Part shown: positions 8,283 to 54,312 of the stretch, piece by piece | Position numbering within the stretch: the first letter of the stretch is position 1 | How the letters are laid out: every line of letters begins with the position of its first letter | Assembly (NCBI GenBank): GCA_949130485.1 | Contig: OX422194.1 | Span: 2,644,641 to 2,708,640 of the forward strand | Reading direction: 5' to 3' | DNA length: 64,000 nucleotides | Source: Agelas oroides | Lineage: Eukaryota > Porifera > Demospongiae > Agelasida > Agelasidae | The notes under the pieces: model-generated | What the model saw: only the letters and a program-made list of their open reading frames with translations | Databases searched by the model: none | Told to the model about the DNA's origin: nothing | Made by a program: the position numbers and the translations under genes

Positions 8283-8379
8283 TTACTGAAGATTCTCATA
8301 GATGTCCTCTGTGACGACAGTCCCACTGTTGGTAGTCACTCCTGCATAGGCATCATGTTCCTTCATCGCAATTGCAGTG
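8283..8379 (-). CDS. Receptor cytoplasmic-tail exon with two YxxV/L motifs
   Basis: The exon follows a CTCAG acceptor and ends in TAA. Its first base completes a serine codon begun by the TM exon. It encodes a short polar tail with YAGV (codons at 8337-8348) and YENL (8289-8300) separated by 12 residues, then Gln-stop. YxxL/I-x(6-12)-YxxL/I is the accepted ITAM spacing, and here the first motif has Val in place of Leu/Ile. Each motif could also be a YxxPhi endocytic signal or a single SH2 docking site. The residue two before each Tyr is Asp, so neither is a standard ITIM. Confidence 0.85.
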
Positions 8380-11300
8380 CTGAGCATGAGTGGAAGGATA
8401 ACTGTTAAATTCTTAGCTAGCCATATCTAGCTCAATGTCTCAGGACAAAACACATTCAAATGCTGTATTCCAGCACATTGAAAATCACAGGAAGTTGTTA
8501 CAGTCTAGAGATGTGGACTGAACTCACTCCAAATGTTTCTCTTTAGTGTTATCTTTTTGTGTCTTTCTGCAGTCAGAGAGAATTGCCAGTGAATGCAAAC
8601 ATTTAGACAGAAGCAAAAGACCAACATTACCTGTGCCTCTTACTCCAAAGAAGGACTGCGCCAATTGATACAAGTAGAATCACAGTGTAGAGCAGAGCTG
8701 TGCCAATACATGCTCCCACCACTGCACCAACAAGAGATCTGGATCCCATTACTAGGGAAGTAGAGTAGAATGCTTGATGTAACGTTGGTATCCACTACAA
8801 AACACTGCTTAACAGGGTAGATGCTAGTACCACACATGGTGCGATACTAGTGAGAACAATTTAGCAGCAGAATGTCAGTTTAGAAATGTGAGCTAGTGGT
8901 ATTGAATCAATACTGGTTCCTTTTCAAGGCAGAGTTATGTTCTTATCAGGATCCTAATAGGTAAGAAAGCTCACTGGTCATCCTTTCTGGGTCTGATTTC
9001 CTGACAACCCCAGAGGGTTATGACTGAACCCAGTGGAATTAGGAAATTGTAGAACAAACCTGAGGAAGTTCCTATGCAGTATATATTCCTGGGAAGCTAC
9101 TGTGGTGAAAGCATATATTATGAGTAATAAGCATCACACCCAAAGTAGTAAAGTAGCAGGAGATCCTCTACGTACTGCCTTTCCTGTCCATGAGCAGTCT
9201 ACTTTTTGTGCCACTAATTGATTTTAGCTAGTGTCACTTGCTATACCTACAATGTGTGAAGTGCCAGTTAGTGGCCACTCAAGCTTTTAGTGACTTTTTG
9301 AAAGTAGCTTACTTCAAATATGATCAACAGACCTACTGTAATCACTCATGTTTGAGGTCCTGGGTGCACATGTATAAAGTTAGATATTGCATTCAGTTTG
9401 GTCCACATAAATTGAGTTTGGAATTTATGCCAAGTCTCCAAAGAAGTGAGGCAAACAAACATACAAGCACAGTTAGTGTGGGGCTTGCTAAGGCTTGCCC
9501 CAATAAACTTAATAAATACAGAGAATTTTTTAGTCAACTGGGAGGTGTTTGTACATGTATTTCAGGAGCTTTCTGGTAGGTGTGGCAATGTGTATGTAGC
9601 ACAAGTTATGAGAAACATTCCACAGCTTTTCCTGGCTGTACTTTGGTAAGGAAGCTAATTAGAGGGTAGTACTCTAAGTAATGCCATATTCCTTTCAGTA
9701 CTGTCAGAAACGATCAAATGTGATGAAAAACAAAACATCACGCTGTACAACTATAGCCTGCCTACCAGTGTAAGGCCATACCAATTTAATTTTATGTTGC
9801 TTGGGCCAGATGACTTTTTAAAGAGGATTGGTAGGTTGGCTTAAAACTAATAGTTATCTGATCTGGGCGACAGTTTTGCTGCAAAGGTACACTAAGAGCT
9901 CTCCAAAAAGAGTCGGCCCATTTACAGTTGAGGATATTGGGCTTGCTTGATTTTTAGGCTCTATTTTGGTGAATATGCTTGTAATTATATGATGCCACTC
10001 CGACAAAGTAAGCTTGCAGATTCACACACATGCAGTAGACAATTATCATTCGGTCAGGCCTGAGCAACATAAAATTAAATTGGCATGGCCTAACCCTGCT
10101 TAATGGACACCCTTCAGTACCTGACATATACAAGTGACACTTATGAGTATTCCAACAGTTTAAAACCCTAAGCCTAGCCCTAGCCCTAACCCTGGTTTAC
10201 CTTAACCCTAAAATCCCTAACCCTAATCTCATTAACCCTATTCTTGCTAACCCTAATTGAGCCTATGAATCTAATTAAAGCCCGACAGAGCTCTAAAATC
10301 TGGAGTGTTTCTGTCCATGTTATGAATATTAATAAGTTGGCTTTAACTAGACCTCAGCATTGCCCATGAACATCCCTGGGTTCAGTCAGCTGTCCAATGG
10401 GAGGGTTAGGGTATGCTGACTCTCATGAACCTCATTATTGACCTTCAGTTGAAACATTGGCAGCTTGGCTTGGGATTGAAAGGAATGGGTAAATGATGTT
10501 GAATATTTATATGCCCTGAGCCTTTATGGACTCAACCCCCCCCCCCCCCCCCCCCCCCCCCCGAACAGAACAGGACTATGAATCTCATTAGCCATCATTG
10601 GATACTTGTTGATATTCTAATTGGGATCAATGAATCTCATTAAAGGGTTGTAATTCTGGCTAAAGTCAGGCAATCTCTCCCCTCATCCATATTAATAGGG
10701 TTGAATTTAGCTAGCTCTGTGTGCCACCCATAGGGAACATTCCGTTCAGTGGTCCTCAAGAACATGATTAGTGGTGTCATAGTATTATAAAGGAGTATAT
10801 TGATATACTCAAAAAAATTCATATATTACACAGGCAACGATACAACTTGCGACGTTTTGGCCCGATTTGGAACCTACTCGTGCGGGCCAAACTGAAAAGG
10901 ACGAACACATCTACTAGTCATGGGGATTGAGAAGATTCATACCAACGGCGCAGGATGGAGAAAACACCGAGAAAGCTACTGGATTTTCACCCTGGACACC
11001 ATGGCGCCAACAGGAATGAACCTTGATGACTGATAATGCATTCCCACCACACACCGTCTTACGCTCCTCTTCTGATGCTACATTGGCGTATATGACGCTG
11101 CGTGGCCCCACATTATTTAAACAGCTAGTTAGCAGTGTGGTTTTATCCTGTGTTGTACAGATAGTCAAAGTCTAGCCTGACGAAGGTCCAAATTGGGCTG
11201 AAACGTCGCAAGTTGTATCGTTGCTGTGTAATATATGAATTTTTTTTGAGTATATCAATATACTTTTTTATAATACTGTGACTAATTCAGCGAAACTTCA

Positions 11301-14300
11301 GACGAGAGACCCGGTTGTTGGAGAGACACCATGACACCAAAAAAATAAAAATAAATAAATAAATGATTAGTGGTGTCATGTTTGTTCTGTGGTAGCACTG
11401 GATTGGGTTGACTTGATGAATGTAACATGTCGAATGTTCAGAGGTTCAGTTATGTGCAGCATCTTAAGTAACACTTCTGAAAAGCAAAGATCTCGCTACT
11501 TCAATTTAGGAATGCTGGAAGAAACTCTAATTGTATGCAGCCACTACTTATAATGACTGTTGTTAGGCAGATGCGTGTCTACCTCACTTGCAAGACTGTC
11601 TACTATTGCTTCTAGACGTATAATGATTATATGGACATTAATTTAGGAAATTTTCTGTAAATAACCACTAAACATAATTGTGTAGTTTTCAGTCTGGACA
11701 GACATGAAAACCTGACTATTCACAGCTTGCTAATCATTGGGTGTGGTAGGGTCACAAATCTTCAAAGAAAGTCTGAGAGTAATTTTGGTTGGTTGAGAAG
11801 CCATAGATTAAATGTGACCTCTAGAGTGTAGTTAATCAATTAAATTTGATCAGTTACAATAGATCCAGGTTTAATGAAATCTTCCCTGCTGGAATTTTCC
11901 ACCATACAGGATTAACACTTATGGGACTTACCCAGAGTAACCATTACTGAACCCACAACAGGACTTGGCAGGTGGTCAGAGAGAGCCACTATGGTGACAT
12001 CGTAAGTGAGATCAGGGGTGCGACCAGTGATGGTAACAGCAGTATCCCCAGCCCCAGCACTCATATTGCCACTATCAGATCCTCCAACTCCACTCCAGTA
12101 CACCTGATACCCAGTCACAGTGCCTGATGGGGTCCAGGAGACTCTGAAACTGCTGGAACCAACCTGTACAGCATTCAGGTTGGTGGGCAAGTTAGCCACT
12201 GTGGATGAGAAAGGAGTCAGATAACCTAAGCATGTCTTTTCCGCAACCATGTGTGACACTACATTCATTACCAACTACTGTTAGGCTTCTGGTGCTTCCT
12301 GAAGGTGTCCTACTGTTGGACACATTGCACTCATACTGTCCTGCAAGTCTCCCAGTAACTGTCAGTGTGTTAGTGTAGGTGGCTGTCACTGTATCCATCA
12401 CTTGAGACGTGATGTCATGGTTGCTGTCATCACTGAGCATTGTGCCATCCCTACTCCAGGAGACAGTGGTGGCAGGACCACCAGTAGAGGTGCAGGTGAG
12501 GGTAAACACAGGGGGGTCAGTGGCTGGGTCTGTGTTCAACTGGAAGGTGATTTCACCTGGGATAGCAACCTGGCCTGTGGAAGGTAAAACCATCAACACA
12601 TGCATGGTACCAACCAATTTTGTTGCCATTTTGCAATATTTTAGTCAACAAAATGTTGTAATGTTTATAGTCAAGTATAGACTGTAAATGAATGAATTTT
12701 CATGTACCAATATGTTTTTGTTTGTTATTTTTTGTTTGTTTGTATGTTTGTTTGTTTGTTTCTTTGTTTGAGCCTAATCACAGTGCCAAGTGAGAAGAAC
12801 CAGTGCTTGTTGTTAAGTGCATATAAGTAGGCAGTGTTAGTCAACTTTAATAAGTACATGCCGTTCATTTATATATACAATGATGTATTAATTGGGGTTT
12901 TTACTGCAGGAATGGTTCAGAGGAAGCCGCACCTGCTCCAGTGACATGTGTTTTTTTAACAGCAAGGGGTTGATAGACTTCAGCTTCACATACCGAAAAG
13001 TGGTCTTGTAGTTGGAAAGGAATTTCTTGTAGAGGTGGTTAAGGGAGCTGGATTTGCAATCCAGCAATTTTGTTCCCAAGTTATTTAGACATAATCTACA
13101 CTGGGAAACAAAAGAGACCTAACGCTACAGAGGGTTTTGATGTATATAGTTTGTTTGAAAAACCATGTGATCATATACTCCACTAGTGTCTGATGTTCCA
13201 TACTAAAAGTGACAGATATATGTATGGTTCAAAGTGAAAATTATGCATACATGCTTGTTACTGGCCACAATTCTGTGCACTGGGTGACTTAATATTTACA
13301 CCTAGGTCTGGTTTTTAACAGGAAGATGAGGTCACTATCCAGGTGGTTGTTAACATAGTTATTCATGGTTGCAAACACTTGTAGGCCACACTGCAGCTAT
13401 ATATGTTTGTGCTGTTTGCACACACACCATGTCTAACTTCTTATTTTGTACAGCACAACTTTCTCTACTGTCTGCTACATAAATCTGCCAGCAGTTCTGA
13501 ATCTACTTACATGGGTGTCACTTTGCTATGCTTCTGTTTTTTTGTTAGCCTGTGGCATAATACATGTGCTTATGGCTAGACTGGCTTGCTTAATTTATGG
13601 AGAATTTTCTCCTATACAATGAATACATCTGTAATAAATTCTATCTAACATTCTACAAAACAGGGAAGGACACATCAAGTACTGCTACAGCTATGCAGTA
13701 TTTGAACTTTAGATTGCATTCAGGTGTACTGGGGTGGAGGAATGTGATGAATGTCAGCATAGAGCCAGTACTTACGGGACTTACCCAGAGTAACCATTAC
13801 TGAACCCACAACAGGACTTGGCAGGTGGTCAGAGAGAGCCACTATGGTGACATCATAAGTGAAATCAAGGGTGAGACCAGTGATGGTAACAGCAGTTTCC
13901 CCGGCTCCAACACTCATATTTCCACTATCAGATCCTCCAACTCCACTCCAGTACACCTGATACCCTGTCACAGTGCCTGATGGGGTCCAGGAGACTCTGA
14001 AACTACTGGAATTAACCTTTACAGCATTGAGGTTGGTGGGCAAGTTAGCCACTGTGGGTGAGAAAAGAGTCTGATAACCTAAGCTTGTCTCTCCACAACC
14101 ATGTGCGACATTACATTCCTTACCAACTACTGTTAGGCTTCTGGTACTTCCTGAAAGTGTCCTACTGTTGGACACACTGCACTCATACTGTCCTGCAAGT
14201 CTCCCAGTGACTGTCAGTGTGTTAGTGTAGGTGGCTGTCACTGTATCCATCACTTGAGATGTGATGTCATGGTTGCTGTCATCACTGAGCATTGTGCCAT

Positions 14301-17300
14301 CCCTCCTCCAGGAGACACTGGTGGGAGGACCACCAGTGGAGGTGCAGGTGAGGGTGAACACAGGGGGGTCAGTGGCTGGGTCTGTGTTCAACTGGAAGGT
14401 GATTTCACCTGGGATAGTAACCTGGCCTGTTGGAGGTGAAACCATGCATCAACACATGCATGGTACCAACTAATACTGTTGCAATTTTGCAATATTTTAA
14501 CAGTCAACAAAATGTTGTAATGTTTATAGTCAAGTATAGACTGTAAATGAATGATTACAGTCAATTTTCATGTACCAATATGTTTTTGTTTGTTTGTTTT
14601 TCCTATTCCTCCTTGTGTACTTGCCACAAAGTCAGTCCCTAGCTCTAGCCATCATCAAAAAAGTCAAGAAATGTAGGGTATACATGATCACTGGAACTGC
14701 AAGAAGGCTGCTAACAGACTGCTATCCCAACTTCTGACCCTAAAGCATTTTGGAGACTTCTCAAAGTTTTAACTAGAAAAACATCTTTTATCCCATCTCT
14801 CAGTGCACCTAACTCCAGCCTGGTTTTTGATGATGCTGTTAAAGTCAACATTCTGAATGATCAGTTTGCCCAAAATTTCAAGTAGCTGCTCATTCACACC
14901 TACTGATCTCAAAATATTTATACTCATATCTTACCTGGACCTGAAGAAGACTACTGGAATAGATGCAATATCAGCTAAAAATCACTCCGTAGTACCAGTG
15001 TGACCAAGATTTTCAATCTGTCCCAAACTACAGGCAAATTCCCTTCAAGTAATTGTAATCAATAAAACCATGCTAGAATTCAACTGCAATAGCTGTAGCG
15101 CTAGTAGGAGAAAATTGCAAGGTGCTTAATTGGTTCCTGTGAAGCTAGAAGCCAGATGCTAATTGAATTAGGATGGGACCCTACATGCAGGTAGAGCACT
15201 TTCAAGATGCAACTGGTTGAAGGAATAGCTATACTAAAATAAAAACAAGGCATTATGGTACAAGTCAGTTCTACAACTCGGTTTCAGTCTCTACGGTATA
15301 CACAACCTCATGCCTGTGGCACTTGGTTGTGTATATCCCGTGGTTAATAATACCTTAGCTTTAATTTTCCTCTGATCTGTCATTGATTTCATGTGTAAGT
15401 AGCTAAACCAGAAAGTTAGTTAGAATGCACTACCAGAACTTATACAAGTGCTCTAGCTCATCCCCCATGTTAAAGCTATACAAGGCCTAATCAAGCCTCA
15501 TCTTCAATGCGCTTGTGTTTTATAGTACCCCCACCTTCTCAAGGATATTCTCGCTATTGAAAACATTCATAAGTGTGCGTTAAGAGTTTGTTCCAAACAG
15601 TGGAACTTTAGTTTTGACAACTTATTGGACACACTTGCTATTACAACCTTGTCCCATAGGAGGAAAACTCATACAGTATAGTTGGTTACTTCACTTTTCG
15701 TGGTTAACCCCGGTATCACAAAATTTTCCACCCACGAAATTTTCCACCCACACTGCAGCTCTGTCTACACGTGCTAACGTTCGGACTTTTTCGCTGCTTG
15801 TGCACTGTTGACAGTGCCCTTGACCCGTAGGATACCCTTTCTCACGCTGTCCCGCATGTGGTGATGGAAGTGAACAGAGAAGTGAACAAGGCAGAAGCAC
15901 GACCAAAAAGTGGGGCCAGTACCTCTCGTTCAGGTATGCGAGCACCAACGGAGTTCGTGCTTTGTAGACGTGGTAGCCTCCCACGCAAGACTCGACACTG
16001 AAGCGCTCCACCTTTCTTCTAGCCTCGCGTAGCCAGACTCTTTCCGGCGAGAGTCTCGTCGAAACCAAAATTCGCATCGCGCATGTACCGCGTTCAAAGC
16101 GTGTACCGCGTTATATGCGAGCAAAAGTATAATATCGTGCGCCACGAAATTTAAAACCACGAAATTTAATTCTGGGGGCCTCTTCCAGCTTTTCATGAAA
16201 ATCTCCACCCATGAAAATACAGTAAATTTTGTACTTTGTTCTTTCTTAAAAGAAACATCTCTCCTTTCCTTTCCTTACTGTTCCCTCACTCCCGAGAATT
16301 CCATCTGCCAGCATCTGAACACCATGCAACTGACCATTGCCACACAAACTCTATTAAGACCTCCTTTTTTTGCTCATGCACCCAAGCTCTGGAATGATCT
16401 TCTATTTGAAATGGCCGCCATCAACTCAGTAACTACTTGGCCCAGTTGTAGTTTTCATTATAACACAATAATAGTATTGCATGTTTCATGTTACATATAG
16501 TTACTATGTATGCACCTGTCTAGTGGTCACAAACAAAACTATATTTAAGCACAGTGTAGTTTTCCAAGAAGAAAACATGGATGTTTACTAACTCATTCTC
16601 TTAATATATGTATACCACTCACCAGTGCTTGCTGTGTATACTCCAATGTATATGCTTTGGATAATGCCTACTGTATCAGGTATCTCACAGTGGTATATTC
16701 CAGTCACTCCACCTCTCCTGCGGTGCATACGAACCACAGTCCAACCTCTGTCTCTGTAGAATTCCCACTGTAAACCTGATGTTGCATTAACAATCTCACT
16801 GGGAAGTCCAGTTCCATTGGGAAAGAACCAATTTCCCAGGAAAGGTTCACAACAAGCAACTAGGGAAGTTGTACAGAGCAAGGCATCATCACCTTCACCA
16901 ATGTCCTCCATGGTTACAAGACTGTTGTTTTGGTGTGTTGTACCTCTGAGTGAGAACCTGACGTAATCTACACAGGAGGAAAAAAAAGAGATGCTAATGC
17001 TACAGACGGTTTTGATGTATATAGTTTGTTTGAAAAACCATGTGATCATATACTCCACTAGTGTCTGATGTTCCATACTAAAAGTGACACACATATATGT
17101 ATGGTTCAAAGTGAAAATTATGCATACATGCTTGTTACTGGCCACAATTCTGTGCACTGGGTGACTTAATATTTACACCTAGGTCTGGTTTTTGACAGGA
17201 AGATGAGGTCACTATCCAGGTGGTTGTTAACATAGTTATTCATGGTTGCAAACACTTGTAGGCCACACTGCAGCTATATATGTTTGTGCTGTTTGTACAG

Positions 17301-23300: not shown

Positions 23301-26300
23301 CTGATGTTGCATTAACAATCTCACTGGGAAGTCCAGTTCCATTGGGAAAGAACCAATTTCCCAGGAAAGGTTCACAACAAGCAACTAGGGAAGTTGTACA
23401 CAGCAAGGCATCATCACCTTCACCAATGTCCTCCATGGTTACAAGACTGTTGTTTTGGTATATTGTACCTCTGAGTGAGAACCTGACGTAATCTACACCG
23501 GAAGAAAAAAAAGAGATACTAACATTAGTGCTACAGAGAGTTTTGCTGTATAAACCATGTGAACAAAAGGACAGGGGATCATTACACTTACTACTGTCTC
23601 ATATTCCAGACTAAAAGTGACACATATATATGTATGGTTGAAAATTATGCATACATGCTTGTTACTGGCCACAATTCTGTGCACTGGGTGACTTAATATT
23701 TACACCTAGGTCTAGTTTTAACAGGAAGATGAGGTCACTATCCAGGTGGTTGTTAACATAGTTATTCATGGTTGCAAACACTTGTAGGCCACACTGCAGC
23801 TATATATGTTTGTGCTGTTTGCACACACACCATGTCTAACTTCCTATTTTGTACAGCACAACTTTCTCTACTGTCTGCCACTTAAATCTGCTGTGAACTT
23901 TAGATTGCATTCATGCAGGTGTACTGGGGTGGAGGAATGTGATGAATGGAGTTTAACCCCCTTTGGTTAAACCAGGTTAACGAATGACTGGTCCTGACAT
24001 GCACTGTATGCTTGGTGGGTTATTAGCCTGCCAATAGTGGTAGCGGCCTGTGCATTCAAGCAAGTTCACGTTAGGTAAATGTCAGCATAGAGCCAACACT
24101 TATGGGGCTCACCTAGAGTAACCATTACTGAACCCACAACAGGACTTGGCAGGTGGTCAGAGAGAGCCACTATGGTGACATGATACGTGAAATCAAGGGT
24201 GAGACCAGTGATGGTAACAGCAGTATCCCCGGCTCTAACACTCATATTGCCACTATCAGATCCTCCAACTCCACTCCAGTACACCTGATACCCTGTCACA
24301 GTGCCTGCTGATGGGGTCCAGGAGACTCTGAAGCTGCTGGAATTAACCTTTACAGCATTGAGGTTGGCGGGTAAGTTAGCCACTGTGGGTGAGAAAAGAG
24401 TCAGATAATCTAAGCTTGTCCCTCCACAACCATGTGCGACACTACATTCCTTACCAACTACTGTTAGGCTTCTGGTACTTCCTGAAGGTGTCCTGCTGTT
24501 GGACACACTGCACTCATACTGTCCTGCAAGTCTCCCAGTGACTGTCAGTGTGTTAGTGTAGGTGGCTGTCACTGTATCCATCACTTGAGACATGATGTCA
24601 TGGTTGCTGTCATCACTGAGCATTGTGCCATCCCTACTCCAGGAAACAGTGGTGGCAGGACCACCAGTGGAGATGCAGGTGAGGGTGAACACAGGAAGGT
24701 TAGTGGCTGGGTCCGTGTTCAACTGGAAGGTGATTTCACCTGGGATAGTAACCTGGCCTGTGGAAGGTGACACCATCAACACATCACAAGACTATTTTGT
24801 AAAAGCATAACAACCCTCCAAATTGACTGAGGGTGAACAAGGAGTTACATCTGCTATCAAGTTGCAATTGGCAGGTATTGAACTGAACATGGCTGTGCTT
24901 TTGGATTTGGCTCAATAGCACGTACACATGGGTGAAGAAGTATACAAGACTGAGAGTGGATCACCCCTATTCTAGATAAATATACATATGTGCTTACCAC
25001 TGCTAATATAAATTCTTTGGGAGGTGCAGTTTTTCAAGAGAAATGTACAGTGTTCTTCTAGGCACTCTAGTTATCTATGAATCTACTACCTACAACTAGC
25101 CAGCAAACAAATCTAACACTATGGAGCGTTATTAGTGCCAAAATAGATGCCCACTTATTTGGGTGATCACAATTGGAAGAACTACACGGTTTATCTTGCG
25201 AGGGTGCTAAAAGAAAACGTTTTTTACGTGTATAGAACGGTTTCACAGAGGGCGCTTTTTATACGGAAGGTGGTTCAAAGAGATAGCTTTTGCAGCAAAT
25301 ATGCTTTTACAGTGGACGGTATCCGCAGCGGAGAGGCAGCTTACTTGCCCAGAAGGCGGTCCAAAAGACAACGATACTTACGCGAAAGACGGTAGTGGAG
25401 CGTTCCCGTCCTCTCATTTGAGATACTAAGCCGTGAGTTCGCAGATTTACAAGAAATATAACTGGCAGTGTGCTAGCGCCGAGCTAGCTATATGTTCAGC
25501 TCGCGTACAGGGGCGCCGGGTGGAGCCAAGAGCACTACTGCATGCATTACGTCATTACAACGTTGCAGACGAAAATAATATTGGCGGATTTTAATTCGGC
25601 AGTTTCAACTCAGACCGCCAAACCACCAAATTTAATTCCCCGCCAAATTTTCCGCCTATACGGTATATAGGAATGAAAAGCCATACGAGCATGCTTACTA
25701 TATATTTTTTAGCGTTTCTCTTCCAGCCTAAGTGAGCTTATACTCAAGCTTGATCTAATAGCCATCAGCTGTCATTAAAACATCTACACTTCAAGCACTA
25801 TGCCTAAAGCTGAGAGGTAATCTATGGCGACTTTATGCACTATGTGGGGCTAAACATTTGCCACCAACCAATGGAACCTACAGTCACATATGACTAAGTC
25901 TTTACTTCAATCTACTTGCAAAGCCTGGAAATATGCAATTTTTAAAGCCACAAAGTTATAACAAAGAGTGCCAACACTTCAATTCAGTGACCATACACAC
26001 GTCATCCTGACCTGCAGCTCTGGTGTCTTGTATACGTCCAATGTAGGTACACTGTTGGTAACTAGCTATGTACACATAATAGCTATGAATATCTTGTGAC
26101 AGGCTAATTGAGGACGGCCAGACAAAAACAAGCCACTTCACTTTATTCTCATTCTCATGTTCCATTGGGTTGGGAAATTAGACTAAGATCACGTTGACGC
26201 TGGGCCTCTCCCATAACCCTCATGTGTCAGCTCATGTATCTGGTTCCATTTTACACTAGTTTGCTATATGCTAAAAAGTCTGGAACCAAGTTGGTTAAGG

Positions 26301-29300
26301 ACAGTATATTGCTTTGCATGTACCTGCCTTGTCTCTTACAGCTTAACTGACATATGCTGCATGAATTGTGTCCATGCCCAGGCTCCAGGATTGCATTTGC
26401 ACATGTGCATGTATGCATTGTTACCTGTCATGTGCTAGTTAGCTTCAAAGTTTCGTGTGTTGCTTACTTAACTAGGGTGTATCTGTGTTTAGTGCCGCCA
26501 TAGCAAAGCATTGGCAATACTAGACGATAGTACGGGTAAGTGCTGTAGTCAGGTGAATTGTGAGCAAAGATGGCTGAATTTATCATTTGGTAATTTCTTT
26601 GTTGTCATGCCTTTGTCTACGGCCTTCCCTTTTATCAGTGGCGTAGCCAGGTCATTGGTATTGGTCGGGCACCTGCTGTACGCTAGCTCTAGGGAGTCTA
26701 ACAACACTAGCGCTCGCACGCTTCGCTCGAGATCGCTTGACATGAGCGGGACGAACATGGTGCTTTGGCCGGGCATGTGCCCAGCCAGGCCCGGCCTTCG
26801 CTACGCCACTGCCTTTTATCCTTCTGATGCTTATTCAATTCCTATAGTGGTTTGGATGGTTTGTTACGGCCAGGATAAGATGGCCTGGGCTGTCCACATG
26901 CAATCATTTCACTGTTTTCGTTCCATTTGAAGTGGTGAAAAATGGTAGCTTGGCTATAGGACCGGTCATCTTGACAAAGTAAAAACTTTGTCGTAAAAGA
27001 CACTTTGCTGGTTACTTTGCCCTTTAAATTTTACTCACATGGACAATGTTAGTTAGCTACTTTAGTTGGACTTCTGCGAGGTCAGGTGCGTAAAATCGTT
27101 ATGTACCGGTAACCTGTTATCTAGGTAACACATGGGAAATTAATGCTGCTCATATACCACTTCTACAGTGGTGGCTCACTCAAGCTCGCCCCAACTACAT
27201 AGTGGAGCTATAACATATTGGCAGAAAAATCTGAAGCCAGAGCCAATGAGTATCCCAGATATGCATGCACAAGAGGCTATGTTGAAGTATCACATTCTCT
27301 CACAACAACAGGAGACTGGGTCTTTAACAGCCAGATAGCTAGCTTGCCTAGCTATCCATTCACTATGCACATTTCTCTATCTGGAGTACTATACATCCAA
27401 TGAACATAGTTTTGTCCCAGGAATGAAACCCATACTAAATAAACCTTGTACCACTCACCAGTGCCTGCTGTGTACACTCCAATGTATATAGCCTGATATA
27501 CACCTGCTGTATCAGGTATCTCACAGTGGTAAATCCCATTCTCTCCACCTCTCCTGCGGTGCATATGTAACGTCATGTTACCTCTGCTTCTGTAGAACTC
27601 CCACTTTATGCCATATCCAATAATCGTGTTGGGCACCCCAGTTCCATTGGGAAAGAACCAGTTCCCTATGGCAGGACCTAAGTATACAGTATAAGGGGAT
27701 CGGCAACAATGGATTTGCTCAGTTACGCAAAGCAGAGCATCATCACCTTCACCAATGTCATCTATGGTTACAAGACTGTTGTTTTGGTATGTTGTACCTC
27801 TGAGTGAGAACCTGACATAACCTACATGGGAATGGAAGATATACCAATATCACGGTGGGTTTATGTATCAGAAACTTAGCTATTACATGTCTGGAGTATG
27901 TTTGAAAAGCTGTGTAAACAGATGGACAATAAGGCATCTAATAAATATCTAGTGTCTTTGTGATCCATATTGAAAATTCAATTAGATCTGTGTAGCAGGG
28001 AGATGTGGTGTGCTGATTGTTCGTACAATTATACCCCAAGTTGCAAATTCAACTGGATATTGGTTAATTAGTGCCATGGTGCACCTAACCCAGAAATGAA
28101 ACTTTGTTCTAGCCTCGTTCCTAGGCCTTCCCACCGTCCAGTTTTTGATTGCTTGCAGTATGCAAAAATGGAGAGGGAAGGCCTGGTATATTTCATCACG
28201 TGGATGACATCAGTGTCTACCTAGGTAGCTACGTAGACAGAGGGGGGGGGGGGGGGGGGGGAGGGATCACCAATCGAAAGAACGCATTTTGCGCACGCGT
28301 TCTTCGTTTCTAACTTGGAGCGGTACGTTTTTCGCTTCACTAATGTTCAAAATTCCAGTGCTTGCGGCAGAAACTACAAGATAAGGCCTCAAGCTCTTTC
28401 TTTCGATGGGGGAACCCTTCGCCCCTCTGTCTACCTAGGTAGACACTCACATGATAAAATATACCAGGCCTTCCCCCTCTGCTTTTTGCATACTGCAAGC
28501 GATGGACAGTGGGAAGGCCCGGGAACGAGGCTAAGTTTGTTCAACAACAAGCGTGGGAAAGTGGTGCTAAATGAGAAAACAACCAGTGCCCATGTTTGCT
28601 TGTAGGATACAGGTGTGCAGTAGTAATGTTATGTCTACTTCACTGATGCTATGTAAACAGTGCTAAATAGCGTAGCTATGAAGCAGTTAACTACACTACT
28701 TTTGCAGTACACAGTGGTCTAACAGTTAGGGTTCAATCACAACATTGGGCAGTGCTTTATATTTTTTCACTTCCTGTATCACTGTTTATGGGCTCCCATT
28801 CCTTGCAGACAATAGTAGGTACATAGCAGCACTTATATTTCTTTTTTATTTTAGCCTGTACTAAAGGTGTGGTCAACTCATGTCTGCATGGCTCCTCCCT
28901 TGTGAAGCAATCAGCCATTCAGCAAAGGTGAACCACAAAGCCTACTGAACTCTAAAGAGTTTGACCCAAGGTAAATCTGTACCATTATTAACTTCTTATG
29001 AGTATCTTGCAGTTCGGTTATACTCGGTACAGTAAAGCAGAATTCAAGTTGTAAATATGTAGTACCACCTGTTTGTAGGGAGAGAGAGTGGAGCTCAGAA
29101 TGAGGCTAGAAGACATATAATTAGATATGCTTGTGGATGTTCATATATGTATCTCTCACTGCAGGACACAAACCTTGCCAACTTGTAATGATCCAGCTGT
29201 AATGAAACAATTTCTACTTCCTATACATTTGTGCATGACAAGTAGCTACATAGACTATTTTAGAATGATATCCATATGTAGTCATGATAAATACAGCCAA

Positions 29301-32300
29301 CACTTATGAACCTCACCTAGAGTAACTGTCACTGCACCTACATTTGGCAGGTGGTCAGAGAGAGCCACTATGGTGACATCGTAAGTGAGATTATATGTGC
29401 GACCAGTGATGGTAACAGCAGTATCCCCGGCTCCAACACTCATATTGCCACTATCAGATCCTCCAACTTCACTCCAGTACACTTGATACCACATCACAGT
29501 GGCTGGTGAGGTCCAGGAGACTCTGAAACTGCTGGAACCAATCTGTACAGCATGGAGGTTGGTGGGCGAGCCAGCAGCTATGGGTGAGAAAAAGTATCAT
29601 AGAGATGCATGTCCATCATGAATGTGTAAAACACTTCCTTACCAACTACTGTTAGGCTTCTGGTACTTCCTGAAGGTGTCCTACTGTTAGACACACTGCA
29701 CTCATACTGTCCTGCAAGTCTCCCAGTGACTGTCAGTGTGTTAGTGTAGGTGGCTGTCACTGTATCCGTCACTTGAGATGTGATGTCATGGTTGCTGTCA
29801 TCACTGAGCATTGTACCATCCTTCCTCCAGGAGACACTGGTGGGAGGACCACCAGTGGAGGTGCAGGTGAGGGTGAACACAGGAGGGTCAGTGGCTGGGT
29901 CTGTGTTCAACTGGAAGGTGATTTCACCTCGGATAGTAACCTGGCCTGTGGAAGGTGAAAGTAAAAAAAGTGATCCAAATATGGCTAGGCTATTTTGTGA
30001 ATACTTTACAGATAGAATGCAACTTTGCAAATTTTGAGATTATGACTAATTTCATGTACATTATTATTGCTGTATTTTTACTTACCACAACATCTGTAAC
30101 TCAAGGGTTTAGACTGTGTATTTATTATTGTGTTAGAAAACTAAACATGGAAAGTTTTCTACGTTCAGAAAATTGCAGCTCCAGGTACATCATTGTGCTG
30201 TCTGCCAATTGGTTGCCTTTCAGGTACTGCAGCCCGTTTACCAGCACAATGCTGTCATTTGAAATAATCTACTGGTAGCATTGGAAGATTTTTAGAGAAG
30301 CAAGGGTAGAGATAGAACTGACAACTGGCGGGAAGGCTTCCACACATTACCAGCTATTTTATTTTTAGTAGTGTATGCTCAAAAATTCCACTTATATGTT
30401 AAGTCTGTGTGGGAGTTACACAATCTTCCTCTCCTTTCCATTCCTATGTACTCTTAGTAATGTACTCTGCTTCATCTTTTGCATGCATGCATGCAATAAT
30501 TACTTACTGCAGTATTCATCTGCCACACCTGTAGACTTTGATTCTAAATCAAATCATTATCCATGTGCACTGATTGTGTAGGAAAGCTATTTGCACTGTT
30601 TTCTGATTTGCTTTGAAAACATTTTCTGTTGATATTAGTAAGTACTTGGTTGCTAGATTACTAAGTTTTTGCCTGCCCGCACCAATCAACAAAAAACCCT
30701 GACACCAGAAACAGGAATACGTGTTGGAATGTCCTAAATATGGCTAGACAGATTGCTAGTAGTCTATTTACTACTTAGTCTGTTAGTCCAGTCCAAATAA
30801 ATTGGATCACTATGTCCTCACACTTTTAACGTTTGCATGTAGTTGCTCTCAAAATTTTCACATCCTCTGATAGCAATACCCTGCCTTGCTTAGAAATTCT
30901 CGCCTCAGCTGGACAGCACATACTGAGTGGTTGTCACCACCAGTGCAGTACATATAGCTAGAGGCTTGTGAAAGTTGGTGGTTATCATAACTCAGTGGTA
31001 GAGTACTGATGGCTAAAGCCAAGAGCCCTGGGTTCGATCCTCAAGTAATTGCCAGCTTTTGCTTTCCCCTGTTTTTACCTGCCATCCTAGGATACCTGAT
31101 ATACTCCATAGCTAATACTCTATAGGCAAAAATACCAACTACAACTAAGGTATGTCCCAGATGAAATGTTTACCAACTCAATCTTGCTACATGTACACTC
31201 ACCAGTGTTTGCGGTGTACACTCCAATGTATAAGGGTTGGATAATATCTGTTCTACAAAGTATTTCACACCGGTAGATTCCAGTCACTCCACCTCTTCTG
31301 CGGTGAATATGAACCACATTCCAAAATATGTCCTCACTGTAGAATTCCCACTGTAGTCCTGATGTGGGAATTCTAGTTCCATTGGGGAAGAACCAGCTTC
31401 CTGTGGAAGACTTACAACAACCAGTTCTATTGGGGAAGAAGAACCTGCAGGTTCCTTCAAGCCTACAACAAGCATGTGAAGAAATTCTGCACTGCAGGGC
31501 ATCATAACCTTCACCAATGTCCTCCAGGATCATGACACTGTTATTTTGGTATGTTGTACCTCTGAGTGAAAAGTTGATATCTCCTGAGCCAGAGAAGAAA
31601 GATGGTAGTAACAATACAAAGTTTGATGCTTTATGTATTCTACACATCTGGAGCTTATCTGAAAAGCCATTTGAACAAAAGTACAACAATACATACTAGT
31701 TTCCTCAAGTGCAATATTAACATGGGTCTGCTCTTTAGGAGAAAATAGTTCTCTATAAATGTGGGTAAAAGTGAACAGTGGGTGGGAGGTGGTGTTGAGT
31801 TGTCATCCTTGATTGGAAGATAATTCTGATGATGAAAAATGACTATTCAGTCACTGTTATACTGCTTTTGTGTTTCCATGCTCCGTGAGAATGCTGCTCT
31901 CAGTTGGTCAAAAAGGGAAACGTTCAGACTGTGACTACTGTCAGATGTGCCCACCCTATACACGAGATGGTATAGAATGGGCCAGTATTTGGCAAGCAAT
32001 TTTCATTAGACAGTCCATGTTGGTTGTTGGATTGGCCAGCGATGGTCCTGATCTTCAGTCAAGAATTAATCATGAGCAGCATGGTTGTTGGATTGGCCAG
32101 TAATGTTCCTGGCCAGTGGTAAGGGATCATGAAAACTGTGGTTGTTGGATTGGTCAGATGGCCAGTGATGGTCATAGTTTGGATAACCAGTGTTGGATGA
32201 TCACTTCTTGAACTTAACCTCATGCACAGCTAGCCCCTAGCACATGGCTGAAGCTATTCTACAAGCCACTTATGTGGGATAACTTATTATTATATTTTCT

Positions 32301-34164
32301 GCATCCTAACAGATGTTTTCCTGAGAGGTTTTGGCCTGTCACGTAATATTTGGACCCCCGCAATATTTGCTCCCCCAGAACGAATATATCAAAATTTTTA
32401 CGTAAAATAAATTATCCCCCTTGAAATATGGCTTCTCCCCTTCATTGCAAAGTTAGCGCTTCTTTGTCAGCAGAAAGATCGCACCAGGAACAGTCTTATG
32501 CGCCAACAAAGTGGCCTGTCTGGAGTGCTAGGTGTCCCAAGACGAATTCAGATGATGAAGGCAGTGTGCAGCGTTTTGGACTGACCAGACGTTGGGGAGC
32601 TAGCCGTCGATTATGCAATATGCCACAGCTATCCACTAGGGTTGTCAAAAGAGAAAAAAGAAAGCCATGAGAACCCTCGTGGTTAAAAAGGGAGAAGTGT
32701 TTTTATGAAGGGGAGGTGCCAGGTGGAAGTTGTGACTGCCATCGACGGGCAGCAATGGCTCCTAGAGTCATGGCTCTCCGATCCCTACGGTTAAAATACT
32801 AGTTTTGGGGATCGTCCATTCATTTCAGTAAAGTTGCACTACTAGTTTTAGAGAGTTGTAATACTTTGAATGACCTATGGGGAGACCAATAATTTCAGAG
32901 GGGGTCCATAGTCTAGTGAAGAAAATGTCTGACAAAGATTATTTGCAAAGTAAAGTCATGTGATCGATGCGTAATGTTACAATTCATGAAATCACCTCTA
33001 GGTTCTCTGAGCCATGATAGTCACAAACACGATGTCCTTGGTTCAGCAAATGTATAACATGTGGGCTTTAAATTGACTATTTTAGCACAAAGTCCAGCTA
33101 CAACTAGTAACCTATCTAATGAAATTCTTCTACACAGTGGATCTAAAGTTTGCCTTGCTACAACTTTCCTTATGTAGATGTATACAGTCAGAAACATAGG
33201 AGGATAATTATAAGTAAATGCCACAGCATTGTTGGGAGGTCAATTTTAAATATGGCAAGGATCATAACGATAAATCCAGCCAACACTTATGGGACTTACC
33301 TAGAGTAACCATTGCTGAACCCATAACAGGACTTGGCAGGTGGTCAGAGAGAGCCACTATGGTGACATCATAAGTGAGACCCGGGATGCAACCAGTGATG
33401 ATAACAGCAGTATCCCCGGCCTCAACACTCATATTTCCACTATCATATTCATGAACTCCAGTCCAGTACACCTGATACCCAGTCACAGTGACTGGTGGGC
33501 TCCAGGAGACTCTGAATCTACTGGAACCAACCTTTACAGCATTGAGGTTGGTGGGCGAGTTAGCCACTGCGGGTGAGAAAAGAGTCTGATAAACTAAGCT
33601 TGTCTCTCCACTGCACTTAGGTTGGTGGGCAACTCAGCCTCTGTGTTTTATTACAAACCACAGCTTCCTAAAAAAATAGGCCTAGATGCTCAAAGACACC
33701 CACTGCACAGGAAGCATTTCAATGAGTGAATACCAGGCTGGGGTGACCGGGAGATGGAGACTGCTATTTCATCCACAGAATGAAATAAATCAATGAATGA
33801 CACAAAATGTCAAACCCTGCACAGCATCTTTTGATCAATACCAGGCATTACATTCCCTTACCAACTACTGTTAAGCATCTGGTACTTCCTGAAGGTGTCC
33901 TGCTGTTGGACACATTGCACTCATACTGTCCTGCAAGTCTCCCAGTGACTGTCAGTGTGTTAGTATAGGTGGCTGTCACTGTATCCGTCACTTGAGATGT
34001 GATGTCATGGTTGCTGTCATCACTGAGCATTGTGCCATCCCTCCTCCAGGAGACAGTGGTGGCCGGACCACCAGTGGAGATGCAGGTGAGGGTGAACACA
34101 GGAGGGTCAGTGGCTGGGTCTGTGTCTAACTGGAAGGTGATTTCACCTGGGATAGTAACCTGGC
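8283..34164 (-). CDS. Ig/FN3 cell-surface receptor exon array with one transmembrane exon and one tyrosine-motif tail (5' incomplete)
   Basis: From high to low coordinate the exons read Ig-FN3 (G), V4, Ig-FN3 (F), V3, Ig-FN3 (E), V2, Ig-FN3 (D), Ig-FN3 (C), V1, Ig-FN3 (B), Ig-FN3 (A), TM, tail. All 18 extracellular exons are open, bounded by AG/GT, and phase 1 at both ends; the TM and tail exons continue the same phase. Spliced together they would encode about 1,880 residues. Only one TM exon and one tail exon are present, at the far 3' end, so internal cassette duplication of a single gene is the simplest reading; a family of splice forms sharing the tail is equally allowed. A tandem gene cluster that lost its membrane exons is a weaker alternative. 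No signal-peptide exon was found. Role inferred: adhesion, recognition or immune-type sensing. The exons are solid; their joining into one transcript is inference. Confidence 0.6.
8631..8751 (-). CDS. Receptor transmembrane exon
   Basis: The exon encodes a short juxtamembrane MGSRS, then about 30 uninterrupted hydrophobic residues (GAVVGACIGTALLYTV and ILLVSIGAVLLW), then the basic stop-transfer SKRH. It begins with two bases that complete a Val codon opened by the final G of the FN3 exons (VTL-V) and ends two bases into a codon completed by the tail exon. No charged residue lies in the helix, so partner association through a membrane acid or base is not predicted. It is the only such exon found in the array. 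Confidence 0.88.
9769..10098. mobile_element. Short inverted-repeat element in the receptor's last large intron
   Basis: The left arm (about 9769-9806: AAGGCCATACCAATTTAA-type) is mirrored by a right arm at about 10054-10098 (TTAAATTGGCATGGCCTAA). The span is about 330 bp with no ORF. A related arm with ACTAAGGCCATACCA lies near 38527. Confidence 0.6.
10160..11490 (-). repeat. Composite repeat block with CCCTAA runs (reverse copy of the 46.13-46.82 kb block), split by an insertion
   Basis: Degenerate CCCTAA/CCCTAGCC runs (10160-10260) are followed by sequence matching, in reverse, 46130-46720 and 48866-49440, including the repeated words ATGAATCTCATTA and CCAATGGGAGGGTTAGGGT. The block is interrupted at 10781-11362 and resumes to about 11490. 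A 27 bp poly-C (10536-10562) lies inside. The TTAGGG runs are interstitial and too degenerate to be a live telomere. Confidence 0.75.
10781..11362 (+). mobile_element. Penelope-like or other target-primed retroposon with 17 bp target duplication and A-rich tail
   Basis: The 17 bp sequence ATGATTAGTGGTGTCAT flanks both sides (10764-10780 and 11363-11379). The uninterrupted paralogous site is present at about 46212-46240. The insert is 582 bp, ends in an A-rich tail (AAATAAATAAATAA), and has inverted arms at 10781-10862 and about 11202-11281. CTGACGA (11177-11183) followed about 17 nt later by GAAAC (11200-11204) recalls the hammerhead core found in Penelope-like elements. No reverse transcriptase is encoded, so the copy is non-autonomous. 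Confidence 0.75.
11932..12574 (-). CDS. Receptor unit A: Ig exon + FN3 exon (closest to the membrane)
   Basis: Ig exon 12272-12574 (303 bp, 101 aa) and FN3 exon 11932-12198 (267 bp, 89 aa) are separated by a 73 bp intron. The Ig domain shows B-strand FTLTC, C-strand VSWSRDG, E-strand YTNTLTVTG and F-strand GQYEC, an I-set/C2-like pattern. The FN3 domain shows FRVSW, GYQVYW and LTYDVTIVALSDHLP. The FN3 exon ends VTL plus one base, which the TM exon completes, so this pair is next to the membrane. Unit A differs from the other copies by VGSS where most have VNSS, and by a GRTPD loop. Confidence 0.88.
12575..13784. other. Intron between units B and A; remnant of a lost V exon
   Basis: 13100-13700 matches the intron that precedes V1 and V2 (17000-17560, 23500-23900). 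At 13087-13096 the V-exon acceptor GTGTAGATTA survives on the minus strand, but the sequence beyond it (12880-13085) is unrelated to any V exon. The V cassette of unit A has therefore been deleted or replaced precisely from its 5' edge. (TTTG)n lies at 12716-12772. Confidence 0.7.
13785..14426 (-). CDS. Receptor unit B: Ig exon + FN3 exon
   Basis: Ig exon 14124-14426 (303 bp) and FN3 exon 13785-14051 (267 bp), both phase 1-1 with clear GT/AG sites. The Ig domain carries PPTSVSWRRDG where units A, C, D and E carry PATTVSW. The FN3 domain reads LTLDFTYDVTI. The neighbouring V1 exon lies upstream at 16623-16967. The open frame and near identity with the other units suggest an active coding exon pair or very recent duplication. 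Confidence 0.87.
14590..16440 (+). mobile_element. Degenerate CR1/L2-like LINE, interrupted by a second element
   Basis: 14590-15010 translates in patches to the segment before the RT domain (SIPSLSAPNSSLVFDDAVK). 15440-15665 gives the C-terminal IENIHKCALRVCSKQWNFS and DTLAITTLSHRR, and 16370-16410 gives FAHAPKLWNDL, all typical of CR1/L2/Rex LINE C-termini. Stops and frameshifts abound. About 15665-16215 is foreign and carries a minus-strand fragment of a HIRAN-like ORF (VESCVGGYHVYKA). The first part is also present at 18480-18960. Confidence 0.75.
16623..16967 (-). CDS. V1: V-like Ig domain exon
   Basis: A 345 bp exon, phase 1-1, from GTGTAG-AT to CACTG-GTGAGT. It encodes 115 residues opening DYVRFSLRGT. 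The B-strand cysteine is in DALLC, an extra CC pair follows, then the core motif GNWFFPNGTG, then RRRGGVTGIYHCEIPD, whose Tyr-x-Cys is the canonical F-strand signature, and YIGVYTAST. It contains Asn-glycosylation sequons (NNS, NGT, NAT). It is almost identical to V2. The likely role is the variable, ligand-facing domain. V-set assignment is by motif order only. Confidence 0.85.
17665..18306 (-). CDS. Receptor unit C: Ig exon + FN3 exon
   Basis: Ig exon 18004-18306 (303 bp) and FN3 exon 17665-17931 (267 bp), phase 1-1, open. Small differences from the other units include NTDTATNPP, SQVTDPV and SESTRS in the Ig domain. The V exon is present downstream (V1) but missing upstream, between D and C. 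Confidence 0.87.
18480..19440 (+). mobile_element. Degenerate CR1/L2-like LINE reverse-transcriptase fragment
   Basis: Patches of translation give PKAGGRPHKP, then in shifting frames a YRPISIFPVLSKLLK-like segment, then WGFTVGKSTTTG-like sequence and SKAFDTVPHPPLIHKL, the conserved RT region that carries the first catalytic Asp. Frameshifts and stops show it is dead. The left part duplicates 14590-15010, so it was copied along with the receptor unit. Confidence 0.8.
19826..20525. mobile_element. hAT-like MITE with CAGTGGCGGATTTAG ends
   Basis: The left end CAGTGGCGGATTTAG pairs with the right end CTAGATCCGCCACTG. ATTAC lies immediately outside both ends. Inside are three copies of a 13 bp unit (CAGTGGCATGCAG, about 19931-19970) and a run of GGATTTC words (20115-20190). 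No transposase is encoded. It occupies the D-C intron where a V exon would be expected. Confidence 0.8.
21098..21739 (-). CDS. Receptor unit D: Ig exon + FN3 exon
   Basis: Ig exon 21437-21739 (303 bp) and FN3 exon 21098-21364 (267 bp), phase 1-1, open. The Ig domain has VPGDITFQLDTNPVTD and GTILSDD, the most distinct N-terminus among the copies. V2 lies upstream at 23148-23492. The flank 20870-21095 matches sequence that normally precedes a V exon, so a V was probably lost between D and C. Confidence 0.87.
22060..22210. repeat. Dispersed repeat shared with 62040-62190
   Basis: Sequence around CCACTACAAAGGGCCGCA and CATCAAAGGGACATGCC recurs in reverse at 62040-62190 with flanking TTGTTTACATTTTC. 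No ORF is supported. It is a dispersed, non-coding mobile-element fragment of unknown class. Confidence 0.7.
22380..22915 (+). repeat. Two copies of a tRNA-derived SINE-like repeat
   Basis: Copies at 22380-22540 and 22765-22915 share ATGCCAGAGCT, TGGCTCAGTTGG (box A-like), GTTCAAATCCTGGCTGG or GTTTGAATTCTGGCTGG (box B-like) and a similar tail with AATACATCTC. The boxes have the spacing of a tRNA-derived RNA polymerase III promoter, but the arms do not fold as a real tRNA. Confidence 0.65.
23148..23492 (-). CDS. V2: V-like Ig domain exon
   Basis: 345 bp, phase 1-1, open from DYVRFSLRGT to GVYIASTG. It differs from V1 at only about five residues (for example TIYQ for TTHQ, LLWEF for LQWEF, VYIAS for VYTAS). 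Flanking intron sequence is also shared with V1, so the two arose by a recent segmental duplication or were homogenised by gene conversion. Confidence 0.85.
24113..24757 (-). CDS. Receptor unit E: Ig exon + FN3 exon
   Basis: Ig exon 24455-24757 (303 bp) and FN3 exon 24113-24382 (270 bp). The FN3 has one extra Ala (WTPSAGTVTG), an in-frame 3 bp insertion, and reads FTYHVTIVAL. All sites and phases are intact. About 130 bp of unrelated sequence (roughly 23948-24080) is inserted in the flank just after the FN3 donor compared with units B to D. Confidence 0.87.
24783..27458. other. Intron between V3 and unit E
   Basis: No exon resembling the array is visible here. 26636-26811 is a hAT MITE (listed separately). 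The remainder, including 25100-25700, contains short open frames without recognisable similarity, and a GGTATATAG-type word near 25660. Confidence 0.5.
26636..26811. mobile_element. hAT MITE, 176 bp, with 8 bp target duplication CCTTTTAT
   Basis: The ends CAGTGGCGTAGCCAGG and CTACGCCACTG are inverted repeats of the classic hAT type. CCTTTTAT is present at 26628-26635 and 26812-26819, an exact 8 bp duplication. No coding capacity. Confidence 0.9.
27459..27821 (-). CDS. V3: V-like Ig domain exon, divergent loops
   Basis: 363 bp, phase 1-1, open. It keeps YVRFSLRGT, DALLC, GNWFFPNGTG, RRRGGENGIYHCEIPD and YIGVYTAGTG. It differs from V1/V2 in the stretch between the CC pair and GNWFF (six residues longer: CCRSPYTVYLGPAIGNW) and in the loop after PNGTG (VPNTIIGYGIK). 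The changes lie in two loops, while the framework is conserved. Confidence 0.85.
28110..28533. mobile_element. hAT-like non-autonomous element, TAGCCTCGTTCC family
   Basis: It starts TAGCCTCGTTCCTAGGC and ends AACGAGGCTA, with inner inverted words GGAAGGCCTGGTATAT / ATATACCAGGCCTTCC. The flanks CTTTGTTC and GTTTGTTC agree at 7 of 8 positions. A poly-G tract of about 19-20 sits near 28241-28260. No transposase. Confidence 0.8.
29317..29945 (-). CDS. Receptor unit F: Ig exon + FN3 exon, FN3 diverged
   Basis: Ig exon 29643-29945 (303 bp) is typical (PPTSVSWRKDG). FN3 exon 29317-29577 (261 bp) is two residues shorter in the last loop (HLPNVGAVTV) and differs at TSPATVMWYQVYWSEVGG; its acceptor is ATAG rather than ACAG. 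Both remain in frame with intact sites. The intron between them is 65 bp. Confidence 0.85.
30979..31050 (+). repeat. tRNA-like SINE head
   Basis: TAACTCAGTGGTAGAGT resembles a D-arm with box A, and GGGTTCGATCC is a box B. The anticodon arm does not pair in the standard register and the T-stem has a mismatch and a wobble, so this is a SINE or tRNA pseudogene rather than a working tRNA. Confidence 0.5.
31203..31583 (-). CDS. V4: V-like Ig domain exon with internal duplication
   Basis: 381 bp, phase 1-1, open. It begins GDINFSLRGT after a GGCTCAG acceptor. It has a duplicated core: CCRLEGTCRFFFPNRTG is followed directly by CCKSSTGSWFFPNGTR, so the CC-to-FFPN segment occurs twice. RRRGGVTGIYRCEI and YIGVYTANTG follow. 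The duplication adds about 16 residues and two cysteines. It is the most divergent V exon of the set. Confidence 0.83.
31584..33299. other. Intron between unit G and V4
   Basis: Three direct copies of TGGTTGTTGGATTGGCCAG-like sequence lie near 32019, 32083 and 32140, spaced about 60 bp. No array-type exon is visible. Other short open frames show no recognisable similarity. Confidence 0.5.
33300..34164 (-). CDS. Receptor unit G: Ig exon + FN3 exon (most 5' pair seen)
   Basis: Ig exon 33862-34164 (303 bp) and FN3 exon 33300-33566 (267 bp) are separated by a 295 bp intron, longer than the 65-73 bp of the other pairs. The FN3 is diverged (VSWSPPVTVTGYQVYWTGV, EYDSGNMSV, GCIPGLTYDV) but open. The Ig acceptor context CTCTAACAG differs from the others. 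No V exon or signal-peptide exon is recognisable above 34164, so the gene start is missing or unrecognised. Confidence 0.83.
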
Positions 34165-40935: not shown

Positions 40936-40959
40936 CATTGTGGGGGCGAGCGTGAGCTC

Positions 40960-42985: not shown

Positions 42986-42999
42986 ACTAAGAACTCCAG

Positions 43000-54145: not shown

Positions 54146-54312
54146 TAAAACAATCACACGGTGTACCGCCGCTGGTATGATGCATAACATTGTATGTTAT
54201 GCATCAGTCAAGATGTCTGATAAATAGCAATCACACTTATTACCTGTTGCATTGTCCCAGAAATGAAAGAGAAATGCATGCTTACCAACTCAGTTTTGTT
54301 ACATGTATTGCT

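Follow-up and report, generated by a model that had tools for sequence, protein, structure and literature searches.

A sponge locus of repeated Ig-FN3 exon cassettes, some with a V-like exon, ahead of one transmembrane exon

To our knowledge, it is not settled which receptors sponges use to distinguish self from non-self. Sponge Ig-like receptors and adhesion molecules, such as the RTK and SAM of Geodia, expose Ig-like domains on the cell surface and have been proposed to act in recognition; these proteins have either a kinase or a small number of Ig domains. Arthropod Dscam1 (Dscam-hv) combines Ig and FN3 domains, duplicated exons and one transmembrane (TM) segment and tail, its duplicated exons being alternative versions of one domain that are used in a mutually exclusive manner. 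The Alr receptors of Hydractinia have a TM segment and a tail with tyrosine motifs, and we know of no Alr protein that contains FN3 or more than a few Ig domains. According to the sections of the source available, the Alr genes are clustered and encode V-set and I-set domains (PMC11999971). The corresponding sections on the chelicerate sDscam genes describe tandem Ig cassettes 5' of one shared membrane end, with their own start codons and promoters, and find cassettes of the same species to be more alike than those of different species (PMC4835542). As for sponges, two papers count against an allorecognition role: the word immunoglobulin is absent from the searched text of the Amphimedon graft transcriptome paper (PMC5450542), and the searched main text of the Ephydatia muelleri genome paper contains neither immunoglobulin nor allorecognition and mentions tandem duplication (PMC7385117). 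The literature searched, outside of which most subscription papers lie, yielded no prior description of a sponge family of V-Ig-FN3 cassettes.

Here, we describe such an array in Agelas oroides. The window analysed is a stretch of 64,000 nucleotides (C12:2644641-2708640, where C12 is contig OX422194.1) within a 259-Mb assembly of 141 contigs, and relatives were sought across the assembly. On the minus strand, from 34164 to 8283, the window holds seven Ig, seven FN3 and four V-like exons, followed by one exon for the TM segment and a last one for the tail (Table 1). Compared by description, the encoded protein and the Hydractinia Alr receptors may work somewhat alike; the sponge locus differs in that FN3 is present in every unit read in the window and that one gene has up to seven units. 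The chelicerate sDscam genes are similar in that Ig cassettes stand in tandem ahead of a common membrane end, whereas here a single signal peptide (SP) exon apparently comes before all cassettes, with FN3 lying inside the repeated unit. Arthropod Dscam1 and the sponge locus both have Ig and FN3 domains, duplicated exons and one TM and tail; here, however, it is whole (V)-Ig-FN3 units that repeat. Ig-like surface domains are shared with the Geodia RTK and SAM proteins, and a cassette array is not described in the searched portion of the literature on them.

Layout of the cassette array

We re-derived the exon ends and lengths, the phases and the splice sites with tblastn and from a direct reading of the sequence. 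A first-pass annotation of this DNA had listed seven exons of Ig type (303 nt), seven of FN3 type (261-270 nt) and four V-like ones (345-381 nt), all open, of phase 1-1 and bordered by GT/AG sites, and all 18 were recovered with these properties, each having a length divisible by three, an AG acceptor, a GT donor and no stop codon. The length differences among all FN3 exons and among all V exons are likewise multiples of three. When the exons are joined from SP to tail they give a single stop-free frame of 1,918 codons in 22 exons, or 1,905 codons without a doubtful 39-nt exon (8566-8528), of which a clear counterpart is absent in 12 relatives. The cassette order, the phases, the open frames and the single intact TM and tail are read directly from the sequence.

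The domain classes were assigned with curated Pfam profiles. Ig exon 1, the sole Ig exon scanned, matches Ig_3 with 37.9 bits (cut-off 30, E 2.7e-9) and I-set with 31 bits (cut-off 23.7), and FN3 exon 1, the sole FN3 exon scanned, matches fn3 with 46.6 bits (cut-off 25, E 4e-12). By these exon 1 profiles, the Ig exons belong to the immunoglobulin superfamily and the FN3 exons are fibronectin type III domains. The first-pass annotation had taken V-Ig-FN3 as the repeated unit. This is a fair name for the repeat; the constant core, however, is Ig-FN3, and the V exon is optional, being present ahead of four of the seven Ig exons. The lack of a V exon before Ig1 agrees with the relatives, no V exon was found ahead of Ig5, and self-alignment, in which duplicated blocks reach 1.87 kb, indicates that the one ahead of Ig7 was cut just past its start.

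The layout bears on the possibility that the locus is a single gene whose cassettes, and above all whose V exons, are included or skipped combinatorially, so that many ectodomains are placed on one tail. As all 18 exons are symmetric with phase 1-1, any subset of them stays in frame. Ig and FN3 are tied together by introns of 65-73 nt in six of the seven units and the V exons are flanked by introns of 620-2,701 nt, which would be the easiest arrangement for skipping. The existence of single-cassette paralogues also suggests that a product with SP-V-Ig-FN3-TM alone can work. However, exon symmetry is equally given by plain domain duplication, and the V donors, GTGAGT in 4/4, are similar in strength to the other donors, the pyrimidine content of the acceptor tracts being 76-88% for V, 59-82% for Ig and 76% for FN3. 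Since the V splice sites are about as strong as the others, there is no weak-exon signature, and we consider combinatorial splicing possible, although rather improbable. Within the array, a tRNA-Ala-like sequence occurs at 22404-22477 on the plus strand; it is perhaps the head of a tRNA-derived SINE.

Table 1. Exons of the array and related remnants in the window, in the order of the minus strand within each group
Feature	Position	Strand	Remark
Candidate first coding exon, signal peptide MKEMVVHVFFAASLLLCYCPWSVCAQ, phase-1 donor GTAAGTG	55865..55943	-	homology and open frame; putative assignment to the array
Decayed V copy in pieces	54314..54543	.	54471-54314 minus strand; first-part piece 54478-54543 plus strand (inverted)
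Decayed Ig copy, frame broken	53822..54160	-	88-91% identical to array Igs
Tail-exon relic STDIVVMKKHAAYQEVTVHSG	50838..50900	-	E 5e-4
Decayed V copy, stops and frame shift	42939..43159	-	
Ig exon 1	33862..34164	-	303 nt
FN3 exon 1	33300..33566	-	267 nt
V-like exon 1	31203..31583	-	381 nt
Ig exon 2	29643..29945	-	303 nt
FN3 exon 2	29317..29577	-	261 nt
V-like exon 2	27459..27821	-	363 nt
Ig exon 3	24455..24757	-	303 nt
FN3 exon 3	24113..24382	-	270 nt
V-like exon 3	23148..23492	-	345 nt
Ig exon 4	21437..21739	-	303 nt
FN3 exon 4	21098..21364	-	267 nt
Ig exon 5	18004..18306	-	303 nt; no preceding V found
FN3 exon 5	17665..17931	-	267 nt
V-like exon 4	16623..16967	-	345 nt; protein 97% identical to V3
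Ig exon 6	14124..14426	-	303 nt
FN3 exon 6	13785..14051	-	267 nt
Relic: V-upstream intron and first bases of V exon, remainder gone	13088..13488	-	88% match of 23891-23485 to 13488-13088
Ig exon 7	12272..12574	-	303 nt
FN3 exon 7	11932..12198	-	267 nt
Transmembrane exon VMGSRSLVGAVVGACIGTALLYTVILLVSIGAVLLWSKRHR	8631..8751	-	
Possible symmetric juxtamembrane exon	8528..8566	-	39 nt; putative; frame intact with or without it
Terminal coding (tail) exon ...AMKEHDAYAGV...EDIYENLQ	8283..8379	-	stop TAA

A probable single transcription unit and its candidate first exon

The first-pass annotation had further proposed that all cassettes feed a single TM and tail exon at the 3' end as one unit. The intact pair indeed occurs once only: no other TM homologue is present in the window at E<=1, and no TM, tail or SP homologues were found between the cassettes. 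The paralogues have the same design with other numbers of cassettes. One of them, of 9 kb (C12:7424311-7415329), reads SP-(Ig-FN3)-(V-Ig-FN3)-(V-Ig-FN3)-TM-tail and is stop-free in the matched stretches; it is flanked upstream by the TM and tail exons of a neighbour (7426960, 7426573, 7425778) and downstream by the next SP (7414809). A one-cassette gene (C12:7443132-7439687) reads SP-V-Ig-FN3-TM, with a tail also present. The interval C12:7391051-7379454 has one TM preceded by four Ig-FN3 pairs and three V exons, which makes at least four cassettes; the nearest upstream SP listed is at 7405489, 14.4 kb off, and between the two there is no Ig or V among the about 150 matches listed. The cassette number across paralogues is thus 1, 3, at least 4 and, in the window, 7, a variation between genes. 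As two other genes have several cassettes before one TM, and neither has a V exon before its first Ig, the window can be taken as the seven-cassette case. One paralogue has three cassettes between a single SP and a single TM, and other genes of the family have one cassette or at least four; the window array is therefore most probably a single gene with a single TM and not seven genes, so that the proposal of a common unit holds with this strength. Single-cassette genes in tandem do exist in the family, which would speak for seven separate genes in a row, but the lack of TM, tail and SP homologues between the cassettes makes this extremely unlikely.

The candidate SP exon lies 21.7 kb from Ig1. 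It is the best SP homologue of the window (E 2e-5 to paralogue SP exons) and has an open hydrophobic frame and a consensus phase-1 donor. Its alignments with five paralogue SP exons fall within 55923-55858 and match at 76-83% over 48-62 nt; beyond the donor they continue for 7 nt at most, and the exon's opening ~20 nt are left unaligned. In the first SP query set no other match in the window fell below E 0.3, and a second set, run over 34.2-56.5 kb, added matches of 0.045 or weaker, without the motif. Given the intact SP exon at 55943-55865, the gene probably spans 55943-8283, and we assume with moderate confidence, from homology and open frame, that this exon is the array gene's own first exon. 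Its ownership is the weak point of this assignment, because the 21.7-kb gap holds broken V and Ig copies, another V remnant and the relic of a tail exon. The SP exon may instead belong to an upstream paralogue that has decayed, in which case the array may be startless.

A single shared 3' end would also fit an organization in the style of clustered protocadherins or sDscams, where every cassette would start from a promoter and first exon of its own and share the TM and tail. That Ig/FN3 genes can be organized in this way is known from the chelicerate sDscams, as described in the available sections of the source (PMC4835542), and a scan for an ATG, a hydrophobic stretch and a donor gave chance-like candidates among the cassettes, e.g., at 27968-27887 and 25417-25345. 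By eye, however, these candidates are unlike the family's signal peptide. By homology, moreover, no SP exon precedes any of the seven cassettes except the one at 55.9 kb, and in one paralogue a single SP serves three cassettes, which renders separate promoters very improbable. On the same two grounds, the locus looks unlike a member of the chelicerate sDscam group.

Repeats and mobile-element pieces are also present between the SP exon and Ig1. The presumed first intron contains, at 46130-50572, a tandem unit of ~1-1.7 kb whose copies are 92-96% identical and carry a repeated open frame; the sole copy scanned (47038-47316) has no Pfam match. It further contains a HIRAN domain frame (36315-36713, minus strand), a Helitron-like PIF1 helicase fragment (40956-41216, plus strand) and a reverse-transcriptase fragment that scores below the cut-off (35109-35366, minus strand). 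By eye, what looks like a different membrane gene on the minus strand of C12:2708641-2718640 reaches the right edge of the window, with a hydrophobic TM-like exon at the border.

Constraint, age and growth of the array

We compared units 3-7 in eight pairs, which share copies, leaving out units 1 and 2. Identity was 94.7-98.6% in exons and 90.6-96.3% in introns, the introns being more alike than the exons in one of the eight pairs. The introns contain 38 indels in 2,967 sites, of which 28 are not multiples of three and thus frame-breaking; the exons contain 2 indels in 4,343 aligned sites, both multiples of three. Shuffled exons of equal composition stay open in 1.4% (Ig, FN3) or 0.08% (V) of trials. 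Nevertheless, because the copies are young, stop-free frames alone are weak evidence: in a neutral simulation all copies remained stop-free in 25% of trials for Ig and in 38% for five FN3 copies. The Ig copies show fewer amino-acid changes than the neutral simulation (P 0.0075), and for the five FN3 copies of equal length no departure from neutral change was seen (P 0.31). Pooled pN/pS was 0.42 for Ig, 0.75 for FN3 and 0.64 for V. Judged by these substitutions, the Ig exons are under constraint.

These values also concern the possibility that the array is a relic, which has lost its start and is now unexpressed or decaying. It would be in line with the decayed V, Ig and tail pieces that separate the SP exon from the array, with the missing V before Ig5 and the V cut away before Ig7, and with FN3 changes near neutral in copies whose lack of stops is plausible under neutrality. 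However, 18/18 exons are open with intact splice sites, the TM and tail are intact, the indels of units 3-7 are intronic except for the 2 of in-frame length, and the Ig exons appear constrained. We thus consider a decaying array quite unlikely and retain the reading of one gene with one TM.

In a tree with three other genes, the Ig exons of the window form one clade (100/97), as do its FN3 exons (95/91), and its four V exons group weakly (77/82). The Ig and FN3 clades argue for expansion inside the gene. Since no such clades are formed by the cassettes in either of the two remaining genes with several cassettes, this growth inside the gene applies to the window array only. Mean protein identity within the array is 91% for Ig, 86% for FN3 and 70% for V. 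On the tree and these identities, the window array grew by recent duplication inside the gene, with greater diversity among its V exons than among the Ig-FN3 pairs that accompany them.

The V exon family, the tail and the proposed receptor

The first-pass annotation had treated the array as a single strange locus; instead, it belongs to a very large family. In the two V exon searches the best 150 of 338 and the best 150 of 336 candidates were scored; the second search added 25 places and other searches added 5, and a script recount gives at least 180 V exons in the assembly. Those listed are distributed over contigs C12 (89), C15 (36), C8 (18), C10 (14), C1 (8), C13 (5), C14 (4), C19 (4), C2 (1) and C20 (1), and the 89 of C12 comprise 85 at 4.7-8.84 Mb and 4 in the window. 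At least one of the family's V exons, C8:5297088, has an internal stop.

Thirty V exons were aligned, namely the four of the window and 26 from best-scoring or fetched loci (few omitted), which do not constitute a random sample. A V-set fold would have cysteines on strands B and F, a tryptophan on strand C, and variable BC, C'C'' and FG loops. C32, W47, Y92 and C94 do not vary in any of the 30 copies, which covers both Ig cysteines as well as the tryptophan. Variation and length changes in these 30 copies concentrate in three loops at CDR1-, CDR2- and CDR3-like positions, the strand and loop assignment being our own. Mean entropy is 1.04, 1.71 and 1.51 bits in loops 1-3 and 0.29-0.70 bits in five framework stretches; a sixth framework stretch (67-78) has a loop-like value of 1.05 bits. 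The pN/pS ratio is 0.93-1.02 in the loops and 0.43-0.65 in the framework, and since the loops were picked after the variation had been seen, these values are read as relaxed constraint, positive selection being unproven.

None of the 30 V exons reaches the Pfam V-set cut-off of 26 bits, and one of them gives a V-set match at 17.2 bits (E 0.0058). The AlphaFold model of a V exon product is weak (pLDDT 61, pTM 0.54). With this low-confidence model, Foldseek nevertheless points to Ig domains: the best match, and the sole one below 0.001, is the first Ig domain of NCAM (E 7.5e-4, TM 0.53), followed by ZIG-8, Dpr/DIP and PD-1. ZIG-8 is also the best solved relative of the V profile by sequence (E 0.007).

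The cytoplasmic tail was compared among 18 distinct tails, the relic at 50.9 kb being left out. Both tyrosines are kept in 18/18. The first lies in YxxV in 15 tails and in YxxI in one, and the second in YxN in 10 of the 18; YxN is a pattern favoured by Grb2-type SH2 domains. An ITIM has the form [SIVL]xYxx[IVL], and an ITAM consists of paired YxxL/I at 6-8 residues. We tried and rejected both readings for the window tail, YAGV...DIYENL, which has Asp at -2 and 12 residues between the motifs. We do not apply the ITIM label because YENL in the window is not a general YxxL, Pro being found at +3 of the second tyrosine in 16 of the 17 other tails.

Taken as a whole, the window probably contains one gene, read right to left from ~55.9 kb to 8.3 kb, which would encode a single-pass surface receptor with a signal peptide, (V)-Ig-FN3 cassettes, a TM helix and a two-tyrosine tail. 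The default transcript would join SP, all cassettes, TM and tail, so that the ectodomain could have up to 18 domains. In such a protein, the Ig-FN3 pairs may form a rod-like stalk along which the V domains are spaced, and the V loops may contact the ligand; this contact could be relayed by phosphorylation of the tail tyrosines, which would recruit SH2 proteins. Cassettes would be gained and lost through unequal exchange between near-identical phase-1 units. Phase 1-1 being common to all units, the length could change by unequal exchange or by exon skipping while the frame stays unharmed, and since the exchange of such units spares the frame, copy number should vary between haplotypes.

With seven cassettes here and other numbers in related genes, the gene has the look of a recognition receptor whose size changes by gain or loss of whole modules. 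It would offer a candidate sponge family that combines a V-like domain bearing variable CDR-like loops with an Ig-FN3 stalk that can be repeated, a single TM and a tail in which two tyrosines are conserved, as well as a model for how a receptor may change its length by whole phase-1 modules with the frame kept. This family comprises at least 180 V exons, and its cassette number varies among the genes. It is conceivable, if doubtful, that these V exons, including the 85 at C12 4.7-8.84 Mb and the 4 at 2.65-2.70 Mb, make up a germline-encoded complex for self/non-self recognition in an early-branching animal, in which individuals would differ by cassette number and V-loop sequence, and isoforms by phase-1 cassette skipping.

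Relatives were also sought beyond the sponge: 30 pattern matches in viral contigs and 24 in bacterial/archaeal genomes were obtained, and none was confirmed, an absence that is expected since this is an animal family.

Several other arrays were observed in the assembly. A second array at C12:8787001-8799200 has at least six V-Ig units every 2.0-2.3 kb, five of them closely alike, with FN3 and family TM matches absent between the units; two further V matches lie just past it (8786098, 8783811). Four V-Ig units followed by Ig-FN3 are found at C14:6854-6865 kb, and Ig matches recur every 2.1-2.3 kb at C12:8.10-8.12 Mb, with V matches interspersed. Another Ig array, of a different subtype, occupies C4:7171229-7198444 and consists of 19 Ig_3 exons with near-equal scores, mostly ~1.46 kb apart. 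Finally, at C12:7407316-7406593 a family SP exon and a TM exon stand ~0.5 kb apart, with no Ig or V between them among the matches listed; this is perhaps a gene minus its cassettes.
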